The notes beneath the pieces were generated by a model that was given only the letters and a program-made list of their open reading frames with translations, made no database searches and was not told the origin of the DNA. This document shows positions 48,711 through 60,585 of a DNA stretch of 64,000 nt, one piece after another. Numbering within the stretch: the stretch's first letter is position 1; the number at the start of each line of letters is the position of its first letter. Source of the stretch: Frondihabitans australicus (lineage in GTDB: Bacteria > Actinomycetota > Actinomycetes > Actinomycetales > Microbacteriaceae); NCBI RefSeq assembly GCF_003634555.1, contig NZ_RBKS01000001.1, forward strand, positions 1 through 64,000, written 5' to 3'. Made by a program: the position numbers and the translations under genes.

Positions 48711-49334
48711 TCACACGCGGCGTGCCGACGGCCCTGCCACGTCGAGCACTTCGCGGCACTTCTCGCCGAAGGCGGCCAGCATCAGCTCGTCGGCGTCGGC
48801 CGACTTCCCGAACGTGCGAGGCAGCTCGATGCCGAGCAGCACGCTCAGCAGCATCCCGTAGCCGAGGAACTCGCTCACCTGCGCCGGCTCGAAGTGCGCC
48901 TCGTCGCGCAGAAAGCGGTAGATCGACACGAAACCCTCGCGGGCGGCGTCGCCGATGACGGGGTCGTTTCCCGAGACGAACGCCTGGAGGAGTGTGCGGT
49001 GCACGCCGGCCCGATCGACGAGGTCGATGTAGGCGGCGCCGAGGCGCTTCTCGAGGATCGTGCCGTCGCCCGGGTCGGGCAGAGCGGCGCGGAATCGCTC
49101 GAGCAGCGCCCCGAGCGCGCCGTTCATCACCTCGAGGAAGAGCTTCTGCTTGGTGCCGAACATGCGCACGACGTACGGCTGGCTGATGCCCGCGGCCTGT
49201 GCCACCTGGTCGGTCGTGGCGCCCGCGTAGCCGTTCTCGCCGAAGACCACCGTCGCGGCGGCGAGGATCTGCTCACGCCGATCCGCAGCGCTGAGTCGTC
49301 CCGTCGTGCCGCTCGGAAGATCCGTCGAAGTCAT
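48711..49334 (-). CDS. TetR-family repressor of the adjacent MFS pump
   Basis: 207 residues. The N-terminal helix-turn-helix is REQILAAATVVFGENGYAGA, TTDQVAQAAGISQPYVVRMF, then GTKQKLFLEVM. The C-terminal ligand domain is helical, with LQAFVSGNDPVIGDAAREGF. It is divergent from the MFS gene across 74 nt that contain GATTACT/AGTAATC operator arms. The ATG lies only a few nt after a TGATAAC -10-like element, so its mRNA may be nearly leaderless. Confidence 0.9.
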   Translation of the reverse strand: MTSTDLPSGTTGRLSAADRREQILAAATVVFGENGYAGATTDQVAQAAGISQPYVVRMFGTKQKLFLEVMNGALGALLERFRAALPDPGDGTILEKRLGAAYIDLVDRAGVHRTLLQAFVSGNDPVIGDAAREGFVSIYRFLRDEAHFEPAQVSEFLGYGMLLSVLLGIELPRTFGKSADADELMLAAFGEKCREVLDVAGPSARRV

Positions 49335-49336
49335 GC

Positions 49337-49385
49337 TTGACAGGTTATCAGCCGATTACTTAGTGTCTAGTAATCATCCGATTAC
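49337..49385 (+). promoter_or_regulatory. TetR operator and MFS promoter
   Basis: TTGACA at 49337-49342 is a consensus -35; TTAGTG/TAGTGT at 49360-49366 serves as -10 at 17-18 bp. GATTACT (49354-49360) and AGTAATC (49369-49375) form an inverted repeat with 8 nt between, covering the -10. A third GATTAC half lies at 49380-49385. A bound TetR dimer would close the pump promoter and probably its own. Confidence 0.75.
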
Positions 49386-49408
49386 AACCGATTTCAGGAG
49401 CCGCGAAA

Positions 49409-50863
49409 ATGTCCGCCACGACAACGTCACGCCGCATCCCGACCTGGCTCGCGATCCTCGCCGCCAGCCTCCCCATGTTCATGGCGACCCTCGACAACCT
49501 CGTCGTCACGAGCGCCCTCCCGGTCATCCACGAGAAGCTCGGCTCGTCCGTCGAGAGCCTGCAGTGGATCACCAACGCCTACACGCTCGCCTTCGCGTCG
49601 CTCATGCTCCTCGCGGTCAGCCTCGGCGACCGCCTCGGGCGTCGCCACCTGTTCCTCGCCGGCCTCGTCATCTTCACCGGCGCCTCCGCCTTCGCGGCGC
49701 TGAGCACCACGACGACGGCCCTCATCGTCGCCCGCGCGCTCGAGGGTGTCGGCGCCGCGGCGATCATGCCGCTCTCGCTCACCCTCCTCGTCGGCTCGGT
49801 CAGCGCCAAGGCCCGCCCGATGGCGATCGGCATCTGGGGCGGCGTCTCCGGTCTCGGTGTCGCGCTCGGCCCCCTCATCGGCGGCGCGGTCGTCGAGGGC
49901 TGGAGCTGGGAGTCGATCTTCTGGCTGAACGTGCCCGTCGGCATCATCGCCATCCCGCTGGCCCTGCGGGCGCTCCCGAACAGCCTCGGCGACCGGGTGC
50001 GGGCGGACTTCCTCGGCGTCGTCCTCGTCGGCCTCGGCGTCGTGGGCGTCGTCTTCGGCATCGTCCGCGGCAACGACAAGGGCTGGTCGAGCGCTCAGGT
50101 GCTCGCGTCGCTCATCGCGGGCGGCGTGCTGCTGATCCTGTTCATCTGGCGCGAGTCGCGCGTCAGCGCCCCGCTGCTGCCGCTCCGGTTCTTCCGCGAC
50201 CGCAGCTTCACGGTGGCGAACGCCGTGGCGATGACCTTCACGTTCGGGTCGTTCGGGTCGGTGTTCATCCTGATCCAGTTCCTGCAGGTGGTGCAGGGCA
50301 AGTCGCCGCTGGCCGCCGGCGTCGAGACGATGCCGTGGACCCTCGCGCCCATGGTCATCGCGCCGCTCACCGGCTTCATCGTGCCGCGCATCGGCACCAG
50401 GGTCGTGATCGTCGCCGGCATGGTGTTCCTCTCGGCCGGCCTGTTCGAGCTCGCCCTGACCATGACGGCGACCGTGTCGTTCGCCGTGATGCTGCCCGGT
50501 TTCATCCTGGCCGGCATCGGCATGGGCATGGCGTTCGCGCCGCTCTCGACGGCCGTGCTGGTGAACATGCGCGAGCAGGATCACGCGAAGGCCTCGGGCA
50601 CCAACTCGACCCTCCGCGAGATCGGCGTCGCCCTCGGAATCGCCGTGCTGACCGCGGTCTTCACCGGCGCCGGCGGGCAGCTGACGCCGACCGGCTACGT
50701 GCACGCGGCGATCCCCGCCGTGATCGTCGGCGCGAGCGTCGTGGCGGGCTCCGCGCTGCTGGCGCTGATCCTGCCCTCGGGTCGGGTGCTCCGGTCGGCG
50801 GCTCCGGATTCCGCGACCCTCGTCGCCGGCGAGTCGCCCCTGGAGCCCGTCGCCGCGCACTAG
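49409..50863 (+). CDS. MFS drug-efflux transporter, DHA2 (14-helix) family
   Basis: 484 residues; AGGAG precedes the ATG. Typical DHA2 text is FMATLDNLVVTSALPVIHEK in helix 1 (motif D1-like), ESLQWITNAYTLAFASLMLL, GDRLGRRHLFLAGLVIFTGA (motif A), ARALEGVGAAAIMPLSLTLL (motif B) and GIWGGVSGLGVALGPLIGGA (motif C, antiporter). It exports drugs or toxic compounds using the proton gradient. The divergent TetR gene and operator indicate inducible expression. Its stop codon lies at the edge of a 59-bp repeat copied from the acetyltransferase gene end. Confidence 0.92.
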   Translation: MSATTTSRRIPTWLAILAASLPMFMATLDNLVVTSALPVIHEKLGSSVESLQWITNAYTLAFASLMLLAVSLGDRLGRRHLFLAGLVIFTGASAFAALSTTTTALIVARALEGVGAAAIMPLSLTLLVGSVSAKARPMAIGIWGGVSGLGVALGPLIGGAVVEGWSWESIFWLNVPVGIIAIPLALRALPNSLGDRVRADFLGVVLVGLGVVGVVFGIVRGNDKGWSSAQVLASLIAGGVLLILFIWRESRVSAPLLPLRFFRDRSFTVANAVAMTFTFGSFGSVFILIQFLQVVQGKSPLAAGVETMPWTLAPMVIAPLTGFIVPRIGTRVVIVAGMVFLSAGLFELALTMTATVSFAVMLPGFILAGIGMGMAFAPLSTAVLVNMREQDHAKASGTNSTLREIGVALGIAVLTAVFTGAGGQLTPTGYVHAAIPAVIVGASVVAGSALLALILPSGRVLRSAAPDSATLVAGESPLEPVAAH

Positions 50864-51003: not shown

Positions 51004-51546
51004 GTGAACACACCATTCCGTGGAGCAGCCCTCGCGGCCTTGGCGACAGCCGCGATCATCGCGGCGACACTGACAGTCGCCACGCCTCAGGCGCAGGCGT
51101 CCGAAGCCCCTCAGTCGGACACGACCGTGAGCCCGTCGATCACGCAGAGCCAATTCGACCAGGCGCTCGTCGAAGCGCGTGAACAGGGATTGATCGAGCG
51201 TCAAGGTATCAACGGCGATGGAGATCTCTCGACCACCGTCGATGCGGGTCAGGGAATCAAGCTCGATTTCGTCGAACCCCGGGGCTCTCGACTTGCTGCG
51301 GGCAGCGACGGTTACGGGGCCTGCGTGGCCCTGAACAACTTCGACCAGGACGCCGTGATCTCGGGCGGACTCTTCGGCGTCTCTGCGGGGCTGTGCGTGG
51401 TCAGCGCTGGTGTGTTCTGCGTGGTGGCGGGCGCCATCCTCACTGCTGCCGGTCTTGCACTGTCTGCGAACAACAATCAGAAGTGCTCGGGTGGGCGCTC
51501 TCTACGGGTCTATCCGTTCAGCGGGCACAAGCCGCGATGCGCGTGA
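51004..51546 (+). CDS. Secreted Cys- and Gly-rich small protein, bacteriocin-like; function unknown
   Basis: 180 residues from a GTG with a perfect AAGGAG (50993-50998). The signal peptide is about 32 residues, with cleavage expected after AQA. The mature part has a polar, acidic N-half (residues 33-105), then a strongly hydrophobic Gly/Ala/Val segment at 117-153 containing SGGLFGVSAGLCVVSAGVFC, and a basic tail ending SGHKPRCA. Cysteines are at 107, 131, 139, 161 and 179. I do not recognise the family. A hydrophobic core framed by Cys and a cationic tail recall membrane-active bacteriocin precursors; a small two-helix gene overlapping region follows. The function is inference only. Confidence 0.7.
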   Translation: MNTPFRGAALAALATAAIIAATLTVATPQAQASEAPQSDTTVSPSITQSQFDQALVEAREQGLIERQGINGDGDLSTTVDAGQGIKLDFVEPRGSRLAAGSDGYGACVALNNFDQDAVISGGLFGVSAGLCVVSAGVFCVVAGAILTAAGLALSANNNQKCSGGRSLRVYPFSGHKPRCA

Positions 51547-51779: not shown

Positions 51780-52313
51780 TCAGCGGAGCTCGAGCGGCTC
51801 GCCCTCGTCAGCGGGGGCGAGCCGCTTCTGCATCCACGCCGTGGTGTGCCAGGCTCCGAGCTTCCAGCCGACGTCGGGGTAGGTCGCAACGGTCTCGAAC
51901 CCGAAGGAGCGATGCAGCCCCACGCTCGCGTCGTTCGGCAGCGTCATGCAGGCCATGGCGATGCGGAACCCACGGCGCAGGAGCAGCGGGAAGAGCGCCT
52001 CGTAAAGAGCCCGGCCGCCGCCGCGCCCGCCCGCGGCGGGATGCAGGTACACGCTCACCTCGGTCGCCCACCGGTACGCCGCCCGCTTGGCGAACGGCCC
52101 CGCGTAGGCGTAGCCGATGACGCCCCGGTCGGGATCGTCGAGCACGAGCCAGGCGTGGGCGGCCTGGGCGTCGATGATCCTGGTCGCCATCTCGGCGGCC
52201 GTCGGTGCGACCTCCTCGAAGGTGATCGCGGTGCCGGTGACGTACGGCTCGTAGATGGCGGCGCAGGCCGCCGCGTCGTCAGGTGTCGCGTCGCGGACGG
52301 TGAAGTCGGCCAT
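51780..52313 (-). CDS. GNAT N-acetyltransferase (phosphinothricin-acetyltransferase-like)
   Basis: 177 residues. FTVRDATPDDAAACAAIYEP and ITFEEVAPTAAEMATRI are the opening of the PAT/bar-like subgroup. Then VIGYAYAGPFAKRAAYRWAT, VSVYLHPAAGGRGGGRALYE (acetyl-CoA pyrophosphate loop, with G-G-R-G-G-G for Q/R-x-x-G-x-G/A) and HRSFGFETVATYPDVGWKLG. It transfers acetyl from acetyl-CoA to an amino group, for example of methionine sulfone or phosphinothricin. The ATG lies inside a 13-bp hairpin. Its 3' end is duplicated 920 bp away beside the MFS gene. Confidence 0.88.
   Translation of the reverse strand: MADFTVRDATPDDAAACAAIYEPYVTGTAITFEEVAPTAAEMATRIIDAQAAHAWLVLDDPDRGVIGYAYAGPFAKRAAYRWATEVSVYLHPAAGGRGGGRALYEALFPLLLRRGFRIAMACMTLPNDASVGLHRSFGFETVATYPDVGWKLGAWHTTAWMQKRLAPADEGEPLELR
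51782..51840. repeat. 59-bp repeat copy 2 (end of the acetyltransferase gene)
   Basis: The right-hand copy of the 59-bp direct repeat; the left copy is at 50862-50920, offset by exactly 920 bp. Only two bases differ, both in the hairpin loop, so the stem AGCGGCTCGCCC / GGGCGAGCCGCT is kept. Here it encodes the last 19 residues of the GNAT protein. Confidence 0.9.
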
Positions 52314-52336
52314 GCCAGCAGTCTGGCATGGCCGAC
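52305..52336 (-). promoter_or_regulatory. Hairpin enclosing the acetyltransferase start codon
   Basis: Perfect 13-bp arms GTCGGCCATGCCA and TGGCATGGCCGAC with a 6-nt loop. In the GNAT message the ATG and first codons (ATG GCC GAC) lie in the 3' arm, so the start would be sequestered. It may double as terminator of the gene ending at 52369. Confidence 0.6.
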
Positions 52337-52368
52337 GGGTGTGGGCGAGGCCCCTCAGGCGGTGCCTT

Positions 52369-52797
52369 CTAGCTCGCCGCGCCCGGGCCGTGGGGGAGTG
52401 CGTACGCCGTGGCGACGCCGACGACGCCGTCCTTCTCGGCGGTGACGGTGACGGTGCCCGCGGCGCCGATCTTCATGCCGCCGAGTTCGACGCTCCAGGA
52501 CCCGCCGAGGGCGTCCGTGCTCGCCGAGGCGACCGTCGAGCCGATGATCCCGCCGTCGGCGTCGAGGACGGTGATGATCGTGCCGGGCGCGGCCGAGCCG
52601 ACGAGGTTCGCCGTGCGCTTCACGAAATCCGGGTTGACCCCGACGATGCGGAAGGCCGGCGCGTCGGCGGAGGGCGCGACGACGGCCTGGCTCGCCGCGG
52701 CGGTGGCCGCCGGGGCCAGCGCGACGCCCGCTCCGACAGCGGAGGCGGCGATGAGGAGGGTCGCGCCGAGGCGCGAGGGGAAGGTTACAGAACGCAT
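52369..52797 (-). CDS. Small secreted Ig-like domain protein
   Basis: 142 residues. The signal peptide covers about residues 1-34 (basic start, LGATLLIAASAVGAGVALAP, cleavage near ATA). The rest is one bacterial Ig-like domain: FRIVGVNPDFVKRTANLVGS, APGTIITVLDADGGIIGSTV, WSVELGGMKIGAAGTVTVTA. Such repeats usually occur in arrays on adhesins; here there is one, with no anchor. The 85 nt upstream are AT-rich and probably hold its promoter. It follows the M1 peptidase gene on the same strand but is not tightly linked. Confidence 0.75.
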   Translation of the reverse strand: MRSVTFPSRLGATLLIAASAVGAGVALAPAATAAASQAVVAPSADAPAFRIVGVNPDFVKRTANLVGSAAPGTIITVLDADGGIIGSTVASASTDALGGSWSVELGGMKIGAAGTVTVTAEKDGVVGVATAYALPHGPGAAS

Positions 52798-52882
52798 GAT
52801 TCTCCATTCGTGCGAGAGGCTTTCTCTCCCCTCGAACTTAGCGAGAATACGAATGCAAAATATTACAATTCGTGGCCAAGGC

Positions 52883-54172
52883 TCAGAGCGCGGGCAGCGG
52901 CCTCCGCGTCAGCCAGTCGTCGAACAGGGCGGGGAGCTCGCGGATTCCGGAGACCTCGACGCACAGTCCGACGAAGTCCTCCGTCGTCACCACGCCGTGG
53001 CGATGCCTGGCCGTCCACTCGCGGAGAACGCGGAAGAAGGCGTCGTCGCCGATCCGCGCTCGCAGAGCCGCGAGCGTCAACGCCCCGCGCTTGTAGACGC
53101 GGTCGTCGAACATCGCGCGCGCCCCGGGGTCGCCGACGATGATGTCCTGCGGCAGACCCTTGAGGCGCGCGTGCGTCTCGGCGGCGAGACGTGCGGCCGA
53201 GGTGCGGCCGGAGGCCTCCGACCAGACCCACTCGGAGTAGCAGGCGAAGCCCTCGTTGAGCCAGATCTCGCTCCAGGAGGCGACGCCGACGCTGTTGCCG
53301 AACCACTGGTGCGCCAGCTCGTGGGCGACGAGCCGCTCGGCGGCGTCGTGGCCGTCGGCGTGGTTCGCGCCGAAGATCGCCATGCCCTGGGCCTCGAGCG
53401 GGATCTCGAGGTCGTCCTCGGTCACGACCACCGAGTACGACGGGAACGGGTAGGGCCCGTAGGCGTCCTCGAAGCAGGCCATCATCTCGCCGACGCGGCC
53501 GAAGTCGTGGGCGATGCGCGACCGCAGGGCGGGCGGCCCGGCGAGCACGCCGGGGACCTCGGCGAAGGTCGCGGGGACGAGCTCGTAGCGGCCGATCTGG
53601 ACGGTCGCGAGGTAGGTCGACGTCGGCTCCTGCTGCTCGTAGACCCACGTGGTGCGGCCGGAGCGCGTGCGCCTCGAGGCGAGCGTGCCGTTGCAGACCA
53701 CGGCGTACGACTGCTCGGTCGAGATCGCGATGCGGTACGACGCCTTGTCGGCGGGGTCGTCGTTGCAGGGGAACCAGGTGGGGGCGCCGGACGGCTGCGA
53801 GGCGACGATGACGCCGTCGGTGAGCTCTTCCCAACCGAGAGCACCCCAGGTCGACGAGCGCGGGGCGGGGGAGCCGCCGTACTCGATCGTGGCGACGAAC
53901 TCCTCGCCGGCCTCGATCGCGCTCGCCGGCGTCACGACGAGCTTCGCCGCGGACTGCGTGAACCGTGCGGCCTTCGTGCCGTCGACGCGCACCTTCGAGG
54001 CGCGCAGGCGGACCAGGTCGAGGCTGAATCGCTGCAGGTCGGCGAGTGCGCGCAGGCGGATCGTGGCGGTGCCGTCGAGCCGGTTCGTCGCCACGCGGTA
54101 CGTGAGGTCGAGGTCGTACGCGAGCGCCGTGTAGCCGTCGTTGCCGGAGTCGGGGAGGTAGGCGACCGCCAT
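52883..54172 (-). CDS. M1-family zinc aminopeptidase of the Pls operon
   Basis: 429 residues, lacking the large C-terminal domain of PepN. The N-terminal beta domain is followed by substrate-site PLEAQGMAIFGANHADG (variant of GAMEN), Zn-binding VAHELAHQWFGNSV with downstream LNEGFACYSEW, and the later YKRGALTLAAL containing the catalytic Tyr. No signal peptide is present. Its ATG shares a base with the Pls stop (TGATG). Known epsilon-poly-lysine producers carry M1-type epsilon-PL-degrading peptidases, so self-protection or product trimming is the likely job here. Confidence 0.9.
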   Translation of the reverse strand: MAVAYLPDSGNDGYTALAYDLDLTYRVATNRLDGTATIRLRALADLQRFSLDLVRLRASKVRVDGTKAARFTQSAAKLVVTPASAIEAGEEFVATIEYGGSPAPRSSTWGALGWEELTDGVIVASQPSGAPTWFPCNDDPADKASYRIAISTEQSYAVVCNGTLASRRTRSGRTTWVYEQQEPTSTYLATVQIGRYELVPATFAEVPGVLAGPPALRSRIAHDFGRVGEMMACFEDAYGPYPFPSYSVVVTEDDLEIPLEAQGMAIFGANHADGHDAAERLVAHELAHQWFGNSVGVASWSEIWLNEGFACYSEWVWSEASGRTSAARLAAETHARLKGLPQDIIVGDPGARAMFDDRVYKRGALTLAALRARIGDDAFFRVLREWTARHRHGVVTTEDFVGLCVEVSGIRELPALFDDWLTRRPLPAL

Positions 54173-57100
54173 CAGGAGCTGGCCACCGAGTGGTAGTCAG
54201 CGAACCGCACCTCGCGCCACGGCCCGATCGGGTTGCCCGACCAGCGGCTGCCCACGGGGACGCCCTCACCGCGCATGACGAGCGAGGCGGGGCCGACGGT
54301 GGCGTGGGCGCCGATCTCGGCGGCGGGCAGCACGACGCTGTGGGGACCGAGGGTGGCGCCCGCGTCGAGGGTGACGGTGTCCATGCTCATGATTCGATCA
54401 TGAAACAGGTGCGTCTGCACGACGCAGCCCCGGTTGACGGCCGAACCATCCCCGAGACGCACCAGGTCGGCCTCGGGCAGCCAGTAGCTGTCGGTCCAGA
54501 CGCCCTTGCCGATCGAGGCGCCGAGCGAGCGGAGCCACCACACGAGCGCGGGGGTGCCGGCCGCGGGCTGCGCGAACCACGGGGCGGCGCACAGCTCGAC
54601 GAAGACGTCGGCGACCTCGCTGCGCCAGACGAAGCTCGACCACAGCGGCTTCTCGGAGACCTTGATCCGGCCGATGAGGGCCCACTTCGCCGCGGTCGCG
54701 ACGAGAGCGGCCACGGCGCCGACGGCGAGCATGACGGCTCCGGAGACGAGGATCGTCCAGCCTGCGCCGATCTGGCCGACGAGCCAGAACAGGGCGAAGA
54801 AGAGCGTGAGCCCGATCAGGCAGGTGACGAACACCGGCACGATGCGGCCGAGCTCCCAGAGGATCCTGGCGAGACGGATCGCCGTGGGCGGGTGGAACGT
54901 GCGCGCGTCGTCGGTGACGGCGACGGTGCGCCGCAGCCGCACGGCGGGCGAGCCGAGCCACGACGACCCCGCCTTCGACTTCTTCGGCGCGGCGCTCAGC
55001 ACGGCGACGAGGCCGTCGCGCGGAACCTTGTGCCCCGGCCCGGTCATGCCCGAGTTGCCGAGGAACGCGCGCTCGCCGATCTCCGCCTCGGCCACGCGCA
55101 GCCAGCCGCCGCCGAGCTCGTACGAGGCGACCATGGTGTCGTCCGCCAGGAACGCCCCGTCGCGGATCGTCGTCATGGCAGGCAGCAGGAGCACGGTCGA
55201 CGCCTCGACGTCACGCCCCACCCGAGCTCCCAGCATGCGCAGCCACACGGCCGTGAACAGTCCCGAGTACAGCGGGAACAGGAAGGTCCGCGCGAGGTCG
55301 AGAAGCCGCTCGGTGCTCCACACCTGCCAGCCCACCCGGGATCGCACGGCGAACGTCCCCTCGCGCACGCCGATGCCGAGCAGGCGCACGAAGAGCACGA
55401 CGAGCACCGCAGCGGTGAAGCCGGCGAGCAGCGTCGCGGGCACGAGCCACGCGAGCGCCCGCAGGTACGCCTCGCCGAGCGTCGCCGAGCCCTGCACGCC
55501 GAGGGCGATGACGGCGGCGCCGCCGGCCAGCGACGCCACGGGCAGCAGGGAGAGCAGGATCGACGACACCCCGTACAGCGCCAGCCACCCGCGATGCGAT
55601 CCTGGCCGGTCGGACGGCCACCACGCGCGGTTCTTGCCGACCCGGGCGGCGGGCGAGCCTGCCCACTCCTGGCCGGAGGGGACGCGGCCGAAGACGGCCG
55701 AGCCGGGTGCGACCGAGGCGTTCTTCCCGATCCTGGTGCCGGGCAGGAGCGTGGAGCGCATGCCGACTGTCGAGCCCGCGCCGATCCGGACGGCGCCGAT
55801 TCGCACGGTGTCGCCGTCGATCCAGTAGCCCGACAGGTCGACTTCGGGCTCGATCGAGGCGCCGCGCCCGATGCGCAGCATGCCTGTGACCGGCGGGATC
55901 GCGTGCAGGTCGACGTCGGCCGCGATGCGGGCTCCGAGGGCGCGGGCGTAGTAGCTGATCCACGGCGCTCCCGCGAGGCCGACGGCGCCGATCTGGTGGG
56001 CGACCTGCTCGGCGAGCCACAGGCGCAGGTGCACGCCGCCGCCGCGCGGGTAGTCGCCGGCCTTCACGCCGCCGACGAGCGCGCGGGCGAAGAGCACCGA
56101 GATGGCCATGCGCCCGAACGGGGTGACGAAGACGATCAGCAGGATCGCGAGGAGCCACGGGTTCGCCGCCGGGAGAGCATCGAACGCGCGGCTGTGCGAT
56201 CCTGCGCTCCAGTGCAGCACCGACGAGGCCGTGAGCGCGTAGGTGACCCAGCGCACCCCGCTCAGGATGTGGAGGGGCAGGCCGAGGAGGGTCTGCAGCC
56301 ACTGCATCCGCACCGGCGTCGGCGTCGAGCGGTGGTAGTCGTCGTTCGGCACGGCCTGCGTACCGACACGGGCGGCGAGGGCGTCCGACATGGCGCCGAG
56401 CCGCGGGTGGGAGTAGATCTCGGCGACGGTGAACTCGGGGTCGCGCGCGCGGATCCGGGCGACGAGCTGGGCGGCCGCGAGCGAGCCCCCGCCGAGGTCG
56501 AAGAAGTTCGCGTCGGCGTCGTCGACGGGCAGGCCCAGCACGGCCTGCCAGTCGGCGGCGAGGATCAGCTCGTCCGGGCTCATGCCGGTGTCGTCGGGCC
56601 CGACGGAGGTGGGCGGCAGCGGCCACGGCAGCGCGTCGCGGTCGATCTTGCCGCTCGTCTTCGTCGGCAGGTCGCCCTCGACGAGGGCGAGCAGGGGCAC
56701 GAGGGCCGCGGGGAGCTCCTCGCGGAGGCGGGTGAGAGCGGCGTTGCGGTCGAAGGCACTCGGATCCTGCACCGCGAGGTAGCCCACGATGACCTGGTTG
56801 CCGGCGTCGGTCTTCCGCACGGCGGCCGCGGCCCCGCCGACCCCGTCGAGGGCGAGCAGCGCCGCCTCGATCTCGCCGAGCTCGATGCGCCGGCCGCCGA
56901 CCTTCACCTGGTCGTCGGCGCGGCCCTGGAAGACGAGGCCGTCGCGCTCGAAACGCACCAGGTCGCCGGATCGGTAGGCGCGCTGCCACCCCAGCTGCTC
57001 GTGCGGCGCGTACTTCTCGGCGTCCTTCGCCGGGTCGAGGTAGCGCGCGAGACCCACGCCGCCGATGATGAGCTCGCCGACCTCGCCCTCCCCGACGGGC

Positions 57101-58158
57101 TCGCCGGTGGTGACGTCGACGACGGCGGCGTCCCAGCCGTCGAGCGGGAGCCCGATGCGGACCAGCTCGCCGGCCTGCACGAGCGAACCGGTGGTGACGA
57201 CGGTCGCCTCGGTGGGGCCGTACGTGTTCCAGACCTCGCGGCCCTCGCCGGTGACCCGGTCGACCGTCTCGGGAGGCAGCGCCTCGCCGCCGAAGATGAG
57301 CAGGCGGACGCTCTCGAGCGCCTCGATCGGCCAGAGCCCCACGAGGGTCGGCACGGTCGAGACGACGGTGATGTCGTGCAGGACGAGCCAGGGGCCGAGG
57401 TCGGCTCCGGTGCGGACGAGGCTTCGGGGCGCAGGCACGAGGCAGGCTCCTGAGCGCCAGGCCAGCCACATCTCCTCGCAGGAGGCGTCGAAGGCCACGC
57501 TGAGCCCCGCGAGCACGCGATCGCCCGGGCCGAGCGGATCGATGCCGGGGGAGCGGAGGAAGAGGCGCGACTCGGCGTCGGCGAACGCGGCGGCCGAGCG
57601 GTGGCTCGCGGCGACGCCCTTCGGGGTGCCGGTCGAGCCCGAGGTGAAGATGATCCAGGCGTCGTCGTCCGGGAGGGGCGCAGTGGGCGTCGCCGCCGCG
57701 GCTCCGGTGGCCCGGCTCGGGTGGGGTGCGACGGGCTGGAAGATGCCGGTCTCGGCTCCTGCCGCATCGCGGTAGAGCCCCCTGGCGCCGATGATGCCGA
57801 CGACGTTCGCCTCGCCGAAGACGAGGTCGGCGCGCTCCTGCGGGTCGTCCGCGTCGACCGGGACGTACGCGGCTCCCGCGGTCAGCACGGCCAGGATCGC
57901 GATGTACAGCCACCGGTCGCCCGACGGCATCCGCACGCCGACCTTGTCGCCCCGTCGCACGCCGGCCGCCGTGAGCGAGGCCGCCGCCGCACGCACGCGC
58001 ACGGCGAGCTCGCGGTAGCTGAGGGCGCCGTCCTCGTCCTCGAGCGCCGACGCCTCCGGGTATGCCTCCACGGTCGAGCGCAGCACGTCGACGAGGGTGC
58101 GCGTCTCGGGAGCACGCTCGGAGCCGAGCAGAAGGCCGGGGGTGTGCACGTCGGTCAT
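54172..58158 (-). CDS. Pls-type non-ribosomal peptide synthetase (epsilon-poly-lysine synthetase-like)
   Basis: 1328 residues, nearly the length of known epsilon-poly-L-lysine synthetases. The adenylation domain (about 1-510) has TSGSTGTPKGV, FDASCEEMWLAW, NTYGPTEATVV, YRSGDLVRF and SGKIDRDALP. A carrier domain (about 525-600) has NFFDLGGGSLAAAQ, Ser bearing phosphopantetheine. Then six helices in three pairs (about 623-693, 853-933, 1100-1160) alternate with three left-handed beta-helix-like tandem domains (723-840, 963-1076, 1186-1320). There is no condensation or thioesterase domain. In Pls the tandem domains join free amino acids to carrier-bound ones by isopeptide bonds. A PPTase and an M1 peptidase are in the same operon. 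The polymer is predicted, not proven. Confidence 0.9.
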   Translation of the reverse strand: MTDVHTPGLLLGSERAPETRTLVDVLRSTVEAYPEASALEDEDGALSYRELAVRVRAAAASLTAAGVRRGDKVGVRMPSGDRWLYIAILAVLTAGAAYVPVDADDPQERADLVFGEANVVGIIGARGLYRDAAGAETGIFQPVAPHPSRATGAAAATPTAPLPDDDAWIIFTSGSTGTPKGVAASHRSAAAFADAESRLFLRSPGIDPLGPGDRVLAGLSVAFDASCEEMWLAWRSGACLVPAPRSLVRTGADLGPWLVLHDITVVSTVPTLVGLWPIEALESVRLLIFGGEALPPETVDRVTGEGREVWNTYGPTEATVVTTGSLVQAGELVRIGLPLDGWDAAVVDVTTGEPVGEGEVGELIIGGVGLARYLDPAKDAEKYAPHEQLGWQRAYRSGDLVRFERDGLVFQGRADDQVKVGGRRIELGEIEAALLALDGVGGAAAAVRKTDAGNQVIVGYLAVQDPSAFDRNAALTRLREELPAALVPLLALVEGDLPTKTSGKIDRDALPWPLPPTSVGPDDTGMSPDELILAADWQAVLGLPVDDADANFFDLGGGSLAAAQLVARIRARDPEFTVAEIYSHPRLGAMSDALAARVGTQAVPNDDYHRSTPTPVRMQWLQTLLGLPLHILSGVRWVTYALTASSVLHWSAGSHSRAFDALPAANPWLLAILLIVFVTPFGRMAISVLFARALVGGVKAGDYPRGGGVHLRLWLAEQVAHQIGAVGLAGAPWISYYARALGARIAADVDLHAIPPVTGMLRIGRGASIEPEVDLSGYWIDGDTVRIGAVRIGAGSTVGMRSTLLPGTRIGKNASVAPGSAVFGRVPSGQEWAGSPAARVGKNRAWWPSDRPGSHRGWLALYGVSSILLSLLPVASLAGGAAVIALGVQGSATLGEAYLRALAWLVPATLLAGFTAAVLVVLFVRLLGIGVREGTFAVRSRVGWQVWSTERLLDLARTFLFPLYSGLFTAVWLRMLGARVGRDVEASTVLLLPAMTTIRDGAFLADDTMVASYELGGGWLRVAEAEIGERAFLGNSGMTGPGHKVPRDGLVAVLSAAPKKSKAGSSWLGSPAVRLRRTVAVTDDARTFHPPTAIRLARILWELGRIVPVFVTCLIGLTLFFALFWLVGQIGAGWTILVSGAVMLAVGAVAALVATAAKWALIGRIKVSEKPLWSSFVWRSEVADVFVELCAAPWFAQPAAGTPALVWWLRSLGASIGKGVWTDSYWLPEADLVRLGDGSAVNRGCVVQTHLFHDRIMSMDTVTLDAGATLGPHSVVLPAAEIGAHATVGPASLVMRGEGVPVGSRWSGNPIGPWREVRFADYHSVASS

Positions 58159-58862
58159 GAAGCGCCTTCCGGTCGGGATGAGAGCGCCCGTACCTTACCG
58201 GTCGCCGGTGGCGCGCCGGTGAACCACGATGCCGGGGCCGTCACGGCGACCGCCCCCACGAGGCGACCTGCCAGGGCGACGGGCAGGTCGAGGTCGCGCA
58301 GGATCCCGGCCCGCACGGCCTCGGCGACACTCACCTCCGCCATCGGCCGGGTCAGACCCTCGCCGGTGGCCTTGAGCAGGGCCTCTTTGCGCACCCACGT
58401 GGCGAGGAGGTCGTCTCCGCTCTCGCCGGGCGCCAGGACCCCGTCGCGGAGCGGGGCGAGTGCCGCCGGCTCCTGCGCCCCGCGCTCTTCGATGTCGACG
58501 CCGCACGGCACAGGGCCCAGCGCGATGGCCGCGAAGGCTCCGCTGCGACTGAGGCTGAACTCGACGCCGTCGGCCTGCGGCTTGCCGTGGGGGCCGCCGC
58601 AGGCGAGGCAGGCAGCGCGCAGGATCCGCACGTCGCCCGGCGCCACGCCCACGGCGTCGCCCAGCAGCCGCCGCAGCACGCGGTGCGCCTCGATGTAGCG
58701 GCGGCGGTCGACGGGGCTGCGCAGACGGCCTGCGCGCTCGCGTTCGGCGGCGTCGAGAGTGCTCGCCGCGGCGCTCGCGGCGGCGTAAGTGTCGGTTCCT
58801 ACGGAATCGGGTGCGAGCGCGTCGAGGTCGACGACGTGCACCGTGATGTCCGCGAGCCCCAT
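58155..58862 (-). CDS. 4'-phosphopantetheinyl transferase (Sfp-type)
   Basis: 235 residues. Family signatures are RRRYIEAHRVLRRLLG, FSLSRSGAFAAIALG, CGVDIEERG (Mg-binding Asp and Glu) and WVRKEALLKATGEGL with the catalytic Glu/Lys set. It transfers phosphopantetheine from CoA to the Ser of a carrier domain. The ATGA overlap with the Pls gene shows its client: it activates the carrier of the synthetase. It is the first gene of a leftward three-gene operon PPTase - Pls - M1 peptidase. Confidence 0.92.
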   Translation of the reverse strand: MGLADITVHVVDLDALAPDSVGTDTYAAASAAASTLDAAERERAGRLRSPVDRRRYIEAHRVLRRLLGDAVGVAPGDVRILRAACLACGGPHGKPQADGVEFSLSRSGAFAAIALGPVPCGVDIEERGAQEPAALAPLRDGVLAPGESGDDLLATWVRKEALLKATGEGLTRPMAEVSVAEAVRAGILRDLDLPVALAGRLVGAVAVTAPASWFTGAPPATGKVRALSSRPEGAS

Positions 58863-58976
58863 GCGCTCGACGCTATCGCCGATTCCGGATCTGCCGACGC
58901 AACCCCACCGCGGGATGACGCGGTCCACTCTCGAGGACGACGCGTCCGGGCCCCAGCTCACCGTAGAGTGGCCTGC

Positions 58977-59549
58977 GTGAACAGAAGTGAGATATTCCAG
59001 GGGAACGACTCTCGTGCGGGCGCGATCGGCCGCGGCGCCGTCGCAGTCCTCATGGCGGTCGGCGGCGGCCTCGTGATCGGCGGCCTGTCGAGCCCGGGCC
59101 AGCAGTACCTTCCCGAGTCGGTCGGCTCGATCGCCAACTCGGTGGGCGGCTGGAGCATGTTCACGTTCCTGCTGGTCTGGCTGTCGCGGGCCCGCCCCGT
59201 CCTGGGTGCGATCCTCGGCGTGGCCGCCTTCGAGGCGATGCTCGAGGGCTACGCGATCGTCAGCGAGTGGCGCGGGTTCTACTACTCGGCGCCGTTCTCG
59301 AGCATGTGGGTGATCCCGGGAATCCTGGCGGGACTCGTCCTCGGCTTCGGGGCGGCGACCGTCCGCCACACCCGGCGACCGCTGGGCCGCTGGCTCTCGG
59401 TCGTGCCGCTCAGCCTCGTGCTCGTCGTCGAGGGCGCCTACGGCCTGCTCGTCATCTCCGACACCACCAGCCCGGTCTACTGGACGATCGAGGTCGTCGC
59501 CGGCGCTGTGTTCCTGGCGCTCGCCGTGTGGCGACGACGGCGCGCCTGA
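58977..59549 (+). CDS. DUF6518-like integral membrane protein
   Basis: 190 residues from a GTG; the frame continues upstream only as a shadow. About six hydrophobic segments, including AVAVLMAVGGGLVIGGLSSP, MFTFLLVWLSRARPVLGAIL and VIPGILAGLVLGFGAATVRH. GYAIVSEWRGFYYSAP is a distinctive loop. This layout is seen in small actinobacterial membrane proteins of unknown function. It is divergent from the PPTase operon with 114 nt between; no regulatory element stands out there. Confidence 0.7.
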   Translation: MNRSEIFQGNDSRAGAIGRGAVAVLMAVGGGLVIGGLSSPGQQYLPESVGSIANSVGGWSMFTFLLVWLSRARPVLGAILGVAAFEAMLEGYAIVSEWRGFYYSAPFSSMWVIPGILAGLVLGFGAATVRHTRRPLGRWLSVVPLSLVLVVEGAYGLLVISDTTSPVYWTIEVVAGAVFLALAVWRRRRA

Positions 59550-59586
59550 CCACTTCCGTTCACCTCCGGGCGGCACGATGTGCCGC

Positions 59587-60585
59587 ATGCCTCTCATCGA
59601 CAACGGCGTGTATGTCGCCGGCCGGCGAATCGAGGACCCCCGCAGCCTCGACGCCACCTACGCGCTCATGCGGGAGCACGACGGCATGGGCTGGATCGGC
59701 CTCTATCGCCCGAGCCCCGACGAGGTGCGCAGCGTCGCGCGCGAGTTCGATCTGCACCCCCTCGCCGTCGAGGACGCCCTGCTCGGCCATCAGCGCTCGA
59801 AGCTCGAGCGCTACGACGAGATCCTCTTCGCCGTCCTGCGACCCGCCCGGTACGTCGACAGCGAGGAGACCGTGGAGTTCGGCGAGCTCCACATCTTCCT
59901 CGGGCCGGAGTTCGTGGTGACGATCCGCCATGCGGAGTCGCCCGACCTCATGCAGGTGCGCAAGCGCATGGAGGCGAACCCGACGCTCCTGGCGCAGGGG
60001 CCCGAGGCGGTGCTGTACGCGATCCTCGACCAGGTCGTCGACGAGTACGAGCCCGTCATCGCCGGCCTCGAGAACGACATCGACGAGATCGAGAACGACC
60101 TCTTCACGGTCGAGTCGATCGGGCTCTCGGAGCGCATCTACAACCTCTCGCGCGAGGTCATCAACTTCCAGCGCGCGGTCGTGCCGCTCGTGAAGATGCT
60201 CGACAACCTCCAGCGCGGAAGCGACAAGTACGGCGTCGACGTCGAGCTGCAGCGCGGTCTCCGCGACGTCCAGGACCACACCCTGCTCATCGCCGAGCGG
60301 GTCGCGTCGTTCCGGCAGATCCTCGACAACGCACTCACCGTGCACGCGACGATCGTCACGCGCCGGCAGACCGACCAGAGCATCCAGCAGAACGAGGAGG
60401 TGAAGAAGATCTCGTCCTGGGCCGCGATCCTCTTCACCCCGACGCTCATCGCCTCGATCTACGGCATGAACTTCGTGCACATGCCCGAACTGGAGTGGGC
60501 GTTCGGGTACCCGTTCGCGCTCGGGCTCATGCTCGCCCTAGGGATCGTGCTGTACGCGGTCTTCAAGAAGCGGAAGTGGCTGTGA
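59587..60585 (+). CDS. corA: CorA-family Mg2+/Co2+ transporter
   Basis: 332 residues from the second ATG (MPLIDNGVYV); an ATG three codons earlier (59578) is possible. The cytoplasmic domain has WIGLYRPSPDEVRSVAREFD, LHPLAVEDALLGHQRSKLER and long helices (ENDIDEIENDLFTVES). The two C-terminal helices are joined by SIYGMNFVHMPELEW, the GMN signature, and the protein ends KKRKWL. It forms a pentameric divalent-metal channel in the inner membrane. A strong terminator follows. It is a single-gene unit. Confidence 0.93.
   Translation: MPLIDNGVYVAGRRIEDPRSLDATYALMREHDGMGWIGLYRPSPDEVRSVAREFDLHPLAVEDALLGHQRSKLERYDEILFAVLRPARYVDSEETVEFGELHIFLGPEFVVTIRHAESPDLMQVRKRMEANPTLLAQGPEAVLYAILDQVVDEYEPVIAGLENDIDEIENDLFTVESIGLSERIYNLSREVINFQRAVVPLVKMLDNLQRGSDKYGVDVELQRGLRDVQDHTLLIAERVASFRQILDNALTVHATIVTRRQTDQSIQQNEEVKKISSWAAILFTPTLIASIYGMNFVHMPELEWAFGYPFALGLMLALGIVLYAVFKKRKWL

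Follow-up and report, generated by a model that had tools for sequence, protein, structure and literature searches.

A three-gene operon of Frondihabitans australicus predicted to make and degrade epsilon-poly-L-lysine

Which product would a compact cluster of three leftward genes provide to Frondihabitans australicus, and does the peptidase gene that closes the cluster belong to the same system? The cluster occupies positions 52883-58862 of the window, by which we mean the whole stretch analysed, that is, the first 64,000 nucleotides of contig NZ_RBKS01000001.1 (assembly GCF_003634555.1; 4.04 Mb genome in one contig). A sequence-only reading had described overlapping genes for a 4'-phosphopantetheinyl transferase (PPTase), a Pls-type nonribosomal peptide synthetase (NRPS) and an M1 peptidase, and had proposed that they make a cationic isopeptide homopolymer. 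The three genes, and the parts of the synthetase, are placed as follows.

58155..58862, minus strand: Sfp-type PPTase, 235 amino acids, predicted to arm the carrier (ACPS match and sequence).
54172..58158, minus strand: Pls/PosA-family NRPS, predicted epsilon-poly-L-lysine synthetase, 1328 amino acids (TIGR02353, match to 7wew, specificity code).
52883..54172, minus strand: M1 metallopeptidase, 429 amino acids, with HEXXHX18E, predicted to degrade epsilon-polylysine (PF01433 at 95 bits, 6a8z, motif, N-terminus).
56611..58113, minus strand: adenylation (A) domain, synthetase residues 16-516 (alignment to 7wew).
56377..56559, minus strand: carrier (PP-binding) domain, synthetase residues 534-594 (Pfam PF00550, 47.9 bits).
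54226..56298, minus strand: membrane and polymerisation half, with hydrophobic helices and the domains C1-C3 (TIGR02353 range, hydropathy, AlphaFold2 model).
54394..54417, minus strand: QTHLFHDR motif of C3, synthetase residues 1248-1255, proposed acyl-transfer site (invariance in 56 relatives).

Reading of the sequence confirmed that the PPTase and synthetase genes overlap by ATGA and the synthetase and M1 genes by TGATG. Ratios of nonsynonymous to synonymous substitution rates were 0.19-0.23 for pls and 0.32-0.37 for the M1 gene, as compared with four loci of the same genus, and 0.53-0.61 for the PPTase gene, as compared with three, indicating purifying selection on all of them. Because the M1 gene is also linked to pls in relatives (see below), and because of this selection, the three genes do not stand side by side by chance: a chance juxtaposition is ruled out, and the three-gene operon is real. 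In 52300-59200, a sigma-70 promoter scan found no promoter and we saw one terminator-like site against 0.8 expected, both results being uninformative here.

From its genes, we predict that the operon very probably makes epsilon-poly-L-lysine, an antimicrobial polymer. The 1328-residue protein is a full-length synthetase of the Pls/PosA family: TIGR02353 ('Pls/PosA family non-ribosomal peptide synthetase') aligned positions 2-695 of its 695 with residues 621-1311 and scored 699 bits against a cut-off of 423.1. The family match thus spans the C-terminal half, beyond the A domain, a point on which the sequence-only reading had staked itself beforehand. Pfam, at E 0.001, recovered one AMP-binding domain, one PP-binding domain and a single Hexapep stretch, and neither a condensation nor a thioesterase domain, the absence of both being as first described. 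Of its named relatives, the synthetase of Frondihabitans sp. Leaf304 ranks first (82%).

The specificity of the A domain points to lysine. In a PDB sequence search with the whole synthetase, of which the best 60 of 183 matches were seen, the A domain matched the epsilon-poly-L-lysine synthase structure 7wew best, with 583 bits, followed by linear gramicidin synthase A with 385 bits, the sum of two modules (189 and 193); these 60 were all A-domain or A-T structures, with no full-length Pls among them. The specificity code reads DAESIGTVVK (residues 224, 225, 228, 267, 288, 290, 312, 320, 321 and 504), and the ten letters of 7wew, read from the alignment, are identical. Here and below, statements from the literature rest on the available parts of the cited papers. 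The offsets of the code residues agree, except for one inserted residue, with the numbering of PosA, for which Asp217, Met218, Glu221, His260, Asn280, Thr304, Val312 and Ser313 are named, and alanine at the second code position is reported for the lysine-activating members of the family (PMC10522769). Since the code equals that of 7wew, the 'poly-diamino-acid' of the earlier reading can be narrowed to lysine, which is the strongly predicted substrate; a cationic isopeptide homopolymer, as first suggested, is thereby supported.

We compared the code across two sets of loci. The close set (110 loci) joined the 30 best-scoring loci of the family to the 80 best of 587 and is not a random sample; the wider set (73 loci) comprised four loci of the genus, one of them from the Leaf304 genome already present in the close set, 66 hand-picked from 121 listed places in the class, a choice that passed over places in the same family and many others, and three plasmid loci. 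DAESIGTVVK was found in all 110 close loci, and the wider set contained 57 loci with this lysine code, seven with DFE-type codes, seven with no readable code and two with DIWQ-type letters. That the synthetase polymerises a different diamino acid (ornithine, diaminobutyrate, diaminopropionate or beta-lysine) is conceivable in that the Pls/PosA family includes such members (PMC10522769) and our comparison was limited to the ten-letter code, leaving aside further pocket residues. We nevertheless regard it as very unlikely: the codes reported for other substrates differ from that of the window, namely DMEHNGTVSK for PosA and ornithine and DGESISVVNK for poly-beta-lysine, and phenylalanine at the second position, as in the seven DFE-type loci, is that of PDAP/PDAB synthetases (PMC10522769). 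A non-lysine polymer is thus not favoured, the code being identical to that of 7wew.

The membrane half would join the lysines. Hydropathy analysis revealed six hydrophobic segments, one before C1, two before C2 and three before C3, and an AlphaFold2 model of residues 601-1328, built from 56 sequences (mean predicted local distance difference test score 84.8; predicted template-modelling score, pTM, 0.88), placed groups of long helices, in alternation, ahead of each of three strand-rich stretches. As against the earlier picture of six helices alternating with three hexapeptide-like domains, the six hydrophobic segments are spread 1+2+3 and not 2+2+2. In a PDB profile search of this half (best stretches from 60 of 131 rows), C1 and C3 matched hexapeptide enzymes and none of the best stretches fell in C2. 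A structure search with the model likewise retrieved hexapeptide acetyltransferases (best Foldseek E 2.2e-4), and C3 resembled maltose and galactoside O-acetyltransferases with a best Z of 7.2 over model residues 565-728, a modest value, as is any Z below 8. Across residues 601-1328 of 56 aligned relatives, the invariant histidines were H752 in C1 and H1250 and H1253 in C3, with none in C2; the latter two belong to the motif QTHLFHDR, whose eight residues are all invariant. In the alignment with the gamma carbonic anhydrase 9rmq, the QTHLF stretch lies, with an offset, beside an HTD stretch, which in hexapeptide enzymes such as 9rmq we take to be an active-site loop. Because of this offset, we can only infer that the C3 histidines are equivalent to the catalytic residues of hexapeptide enzymes. 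Most likely, C3 would carry the acyl-transfer site and C1 and C2 would be supporting copies. Hexapeptide-fold enzymes work as trimers, and our guess, by analogy, is that C1-C3 may pack as an intramolecular pseudo-trimer.

These elements suggest the following course of synthesis. Judging from its family, the PPTase would arm the carrier domain; the A domain, as its code strongly predicts, would adenylate L-lysine and load the carrier; the membrane half would link the carboxyl group of the loaded lysine to an epsilon-amino group, either that of free lysine or that of a growing chain held non-covalently; and the polymer would then be exported. The last two steps are transferred here by homology from Streptomyces albulus Pls, for which coupling of this kind by C1-C3, onto free lysine or a non-covalently held chain, has been described, the catalysis of polymerisation being called poorly understood (PMC9205021). 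Alternatively, instead of a secreted antimicrobial the product might be a lysine oligomer, short or bound to the cell, that serves inside the cell or in the envelope. The gene is common (165 of 398 genomes of the family), as would suit a physiological function no less than an antibiotic one, most of the linked M1 enzymes lack a signal-peptide-like start (see below) and Corynebacterium variabile, which carries a comparable operon, showed no secreted polymer; however, its Pls, when expressed in Streptomyces coelicolor, made epsilon-poly-L-lysine of 26 to 35 residues (PMC8117764), and we consider an oligomer unlikely as compared with the polymer.

Is the peptidase part of this system? The third gene matches Peptidase_M1 and the M1 N-terminal domain in Pfam, and its best PDB match, aligned over residues 6-427, is 6a8z, presumably an M1 zinc metalloprotease of Deinococcus, for which we know of no tie to polylysine. 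HEXXHX18E is present in the M1 of the window and in all 164 retrieved linked M1s that scored above 200 bits. Every one of the 110 close loci has an M1 gene downstream of pls and in the same orientation, usually as its direct neighbour and never farther off than ~2.2 kb (L069); in the wider set, an M1 was detected in 51 of 57 lysine-code loci, three of the seven DFE-type loci and none of nine others. The linkage of an M1-type peptidase gene to pls, to which the earlier reading had pointed, is thus strong. A peptidase linked by chance and unrelated to the polymer would have in its favour that the fold is that of aminopeptidases in general and that the genome has M1 genes at two other places, but linkage on this scale makes it extremely improbable. 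As a separate observation, a Rhodococcus opacus plasmid typed as mobilizable (NZ_CP095404.2, locus L183) carries a lysine-code synthetase with no M1 within ~6 kb on either side, its neighbours being regulators and phosphate genes.

If the M1 peptidase hydrolyses the polymer, as we propose, the question is on which side of the membrane. Signal-peptide-like starts, called by a rule of our own and not by SignalP, among in-frame starts no more than 150 bases from the core, were present in four of 165 linked M1s and absent from the other 161, including that of the window. The four are L185, a Streptomyces plasmid locus whose synthetase is the nearest to 7wew among the 183 compared (82.7% in the A domain), and three beside DFE-type synthetases (L178, L180 and L182), where the same-strand M1 lies ~950 bases downstream. 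A rapidly built tree, covering 95 of these 165 M1s, has a branch (support 82) with all four on the same side, a grouping that may be false because long branches meet there. Since the M1 of the window has no recognisable export signal, it would most likely clear or recycle cytoplasmic polymer, rather than trim it outside as reported for PldII; for the same reason, the trimming of a secreted polymer foreseen in the earlier reading is not established. The M1 could instead act outside the cell, exported by a route that our rule does not see: published work places S. albulus PldII at the outer surface of the membrane (PMC9223678; PMC9205021), and M1 genes adjoin pls on Streptomyces and Kitasatospora plasmids. 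We consider this rather unlikely, given that signal-peptide-like starts are lacking in the window and in nearly all linked M1s and that L185, whose synthetase comes closest to 7wew, does have one.

A cytoplasmic M1 acting on lysine polymer remains our preferred reading. More tentatively, we suggest, as a possible but on balance doubtful generalisation, that most actinobacterial epsilon-polylysine systems pair the synthetase with a cytosolic recycling M1, external PldII being the exception, and that C1-C3 form a pseudo-trimer with one working site in C3. Several points weigh against our account, besides the home-made signal rule. No M1 was detected within the fetched flank in six of the 57 lysine-code loci (L143, L147, L153, L173, L181 and L183). 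The assignment of M1 in Streptomycetaceae rests on the annotation of plasmid loci, the sequence of S. albulus PldII itself being absent from the comparison. Two zinc ions are not expected of an M1 enzyme. PldII, however, has been modelled with two (PMC9223678). C. variabile itself yielded no detectable epsilon-poly-L-lysine, and neither did its gene in Corynebacterium glutamicum (PMC8117764), indicating that such operons can be silent. Finally, a rapid A-domain tree (95 rows), with long-branch warnings and an arbitrary midpoint root, grouped the window with its own genus (100) inside a starred clade of 82 rows and paired 7wew with L185 (99) just outside it. In favour of our account, the window and 7wew share a starred clade of 86 rows, in which every code-labelled row is DAESIGTVVK.

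The PPTase is not a constant member of the operon. ACPS matched a longer open reading frame (58155-59657) containing the PPTase with 27 bits (cut-off 25), and in a search of the genome the PPTase, with 29.2 bits, was one of three ACPS hits, which rules it out as the sole activator. Among 153 loci (L033-L185), tblastn with the PPTase of the window (E up to 1e-3) located a match downstream on the opposite strand in 29, upstream on the same strand in four and downstream on the same strand in one, and none in 119, where a PPTase may lie outside the fetched flank. The four same-strand upstream rows represent three genomes (L033 and L113 being one), all of the window's own genus; a further locus of the genus (L115) gave no match in the fetched flank. 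Among the loci scored, the PPTase thus stands at the head of the operon in this genus alone, and it is ruled out as a conserved operon member.

How unusual is the unit? With E of 1e-50 or better required, TIGR02353 had matches in all seven genomes of the genus (F. australicus included), in 165 of 398 family genomes and in 105 of 394 from the class, and synthetase relatives occur on 19 plasmid records. In two genomes of the genus (G246 and G285; loci L200 and L201) the match covers part of the profile only, and these synthetases may be broken or frameshifted copies. The plasmids that carry relatives include some from Mycobacterium avium and Mycobacterium intracellulare, with ~55% identity. The epsilon-poly-L-lysine synthetase-peptidase system is already known, an earlier study having described a synthetase-peptidase operon as well as Pls in coryneforms, Microbacterium among them (PMC8117764). 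In a loose literature search, none of the 15 entries listed, of 2,063 papers, contains the name Frondihabitans, which is too little to claim that the genus is absent from print. Because the Pls-M1 pair is widespread in the class and in print, it is not unusual, and because the genome has two other ACPS-family matches, the unit is not strictly self-contained, in contrast to the activation, synthesis and degradation unit of the sequence-only reading. The new points are small: the linked M1s mostly lack a signal-peptide-like start, the leading position of the PPTase was confined to this genus among the 153 loci, and two of the three invariant histidines lie in one C3 motif.

Three known systems can be set beside the operon. 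The Streptomyces system (Pls, 7wew, with PldII) has the same A-domain code and, as described, the same domain order (PMC8117764; PMC9205021). In L185, as in the window, the peptidase gene, annotated as M1, adjoins pls, with a 4-base overlap; unlike that of the window, this M1, 41% identical to it, starts with a signal-peptide-like sequence, and in the A-domain tree a separate branch unites 7wew with L185, apart from the 82-row clade of the window. C. variabile, a coryneform actinobacterium, is likened here by description and has a synthetase-peptidase operon as in the window, although the available part of that description names no PPTase, which the operon of the window has (PMC8117764). PosA, the delta-poly-L-ornithine synthetase of Acinetobacter baumannii, shares family and architecture with the synthetase of the window, but differs in its code and in its single-gene operon (PMC10522769).

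Epsilon-polylysine is a commercial food preservative from Streptomyces fermentation (PMC8117764; PMC9205021), and the intact operon of one more actinobacterial genus would offer new enzymes for work on chain length and mechanism. The split among linked M1s, with a signal-peptide-like start in so few, opens the role of the degrading enzyme to testing, and the C3 motif provides a cluster of residues to mutate for the polymerisation step.

Other genes were noted near the operon. Just downstream of the M1 gene, 52369-52797 (minus strand) encodes 142 amino acids with a signal-peptide-like start and, at E 0.001, matches nothing in Pfam or NCBIfam. A putative secreted small protein (51004-51546, plus strand, start chosen by eye) begins with a signal-peptide-like start, followed by a glycine- and valine-rich hydrophobic stretch and cysteines; its only Pfam match, to DUF4148, is below threshold, and that it is a bacteriocin-like peptide is a guess. 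Further away, at 48711-50863, a TetR-like regulator, recognised by eye, is divergent from a DHA2-type efflux transporter (TIGR00711).

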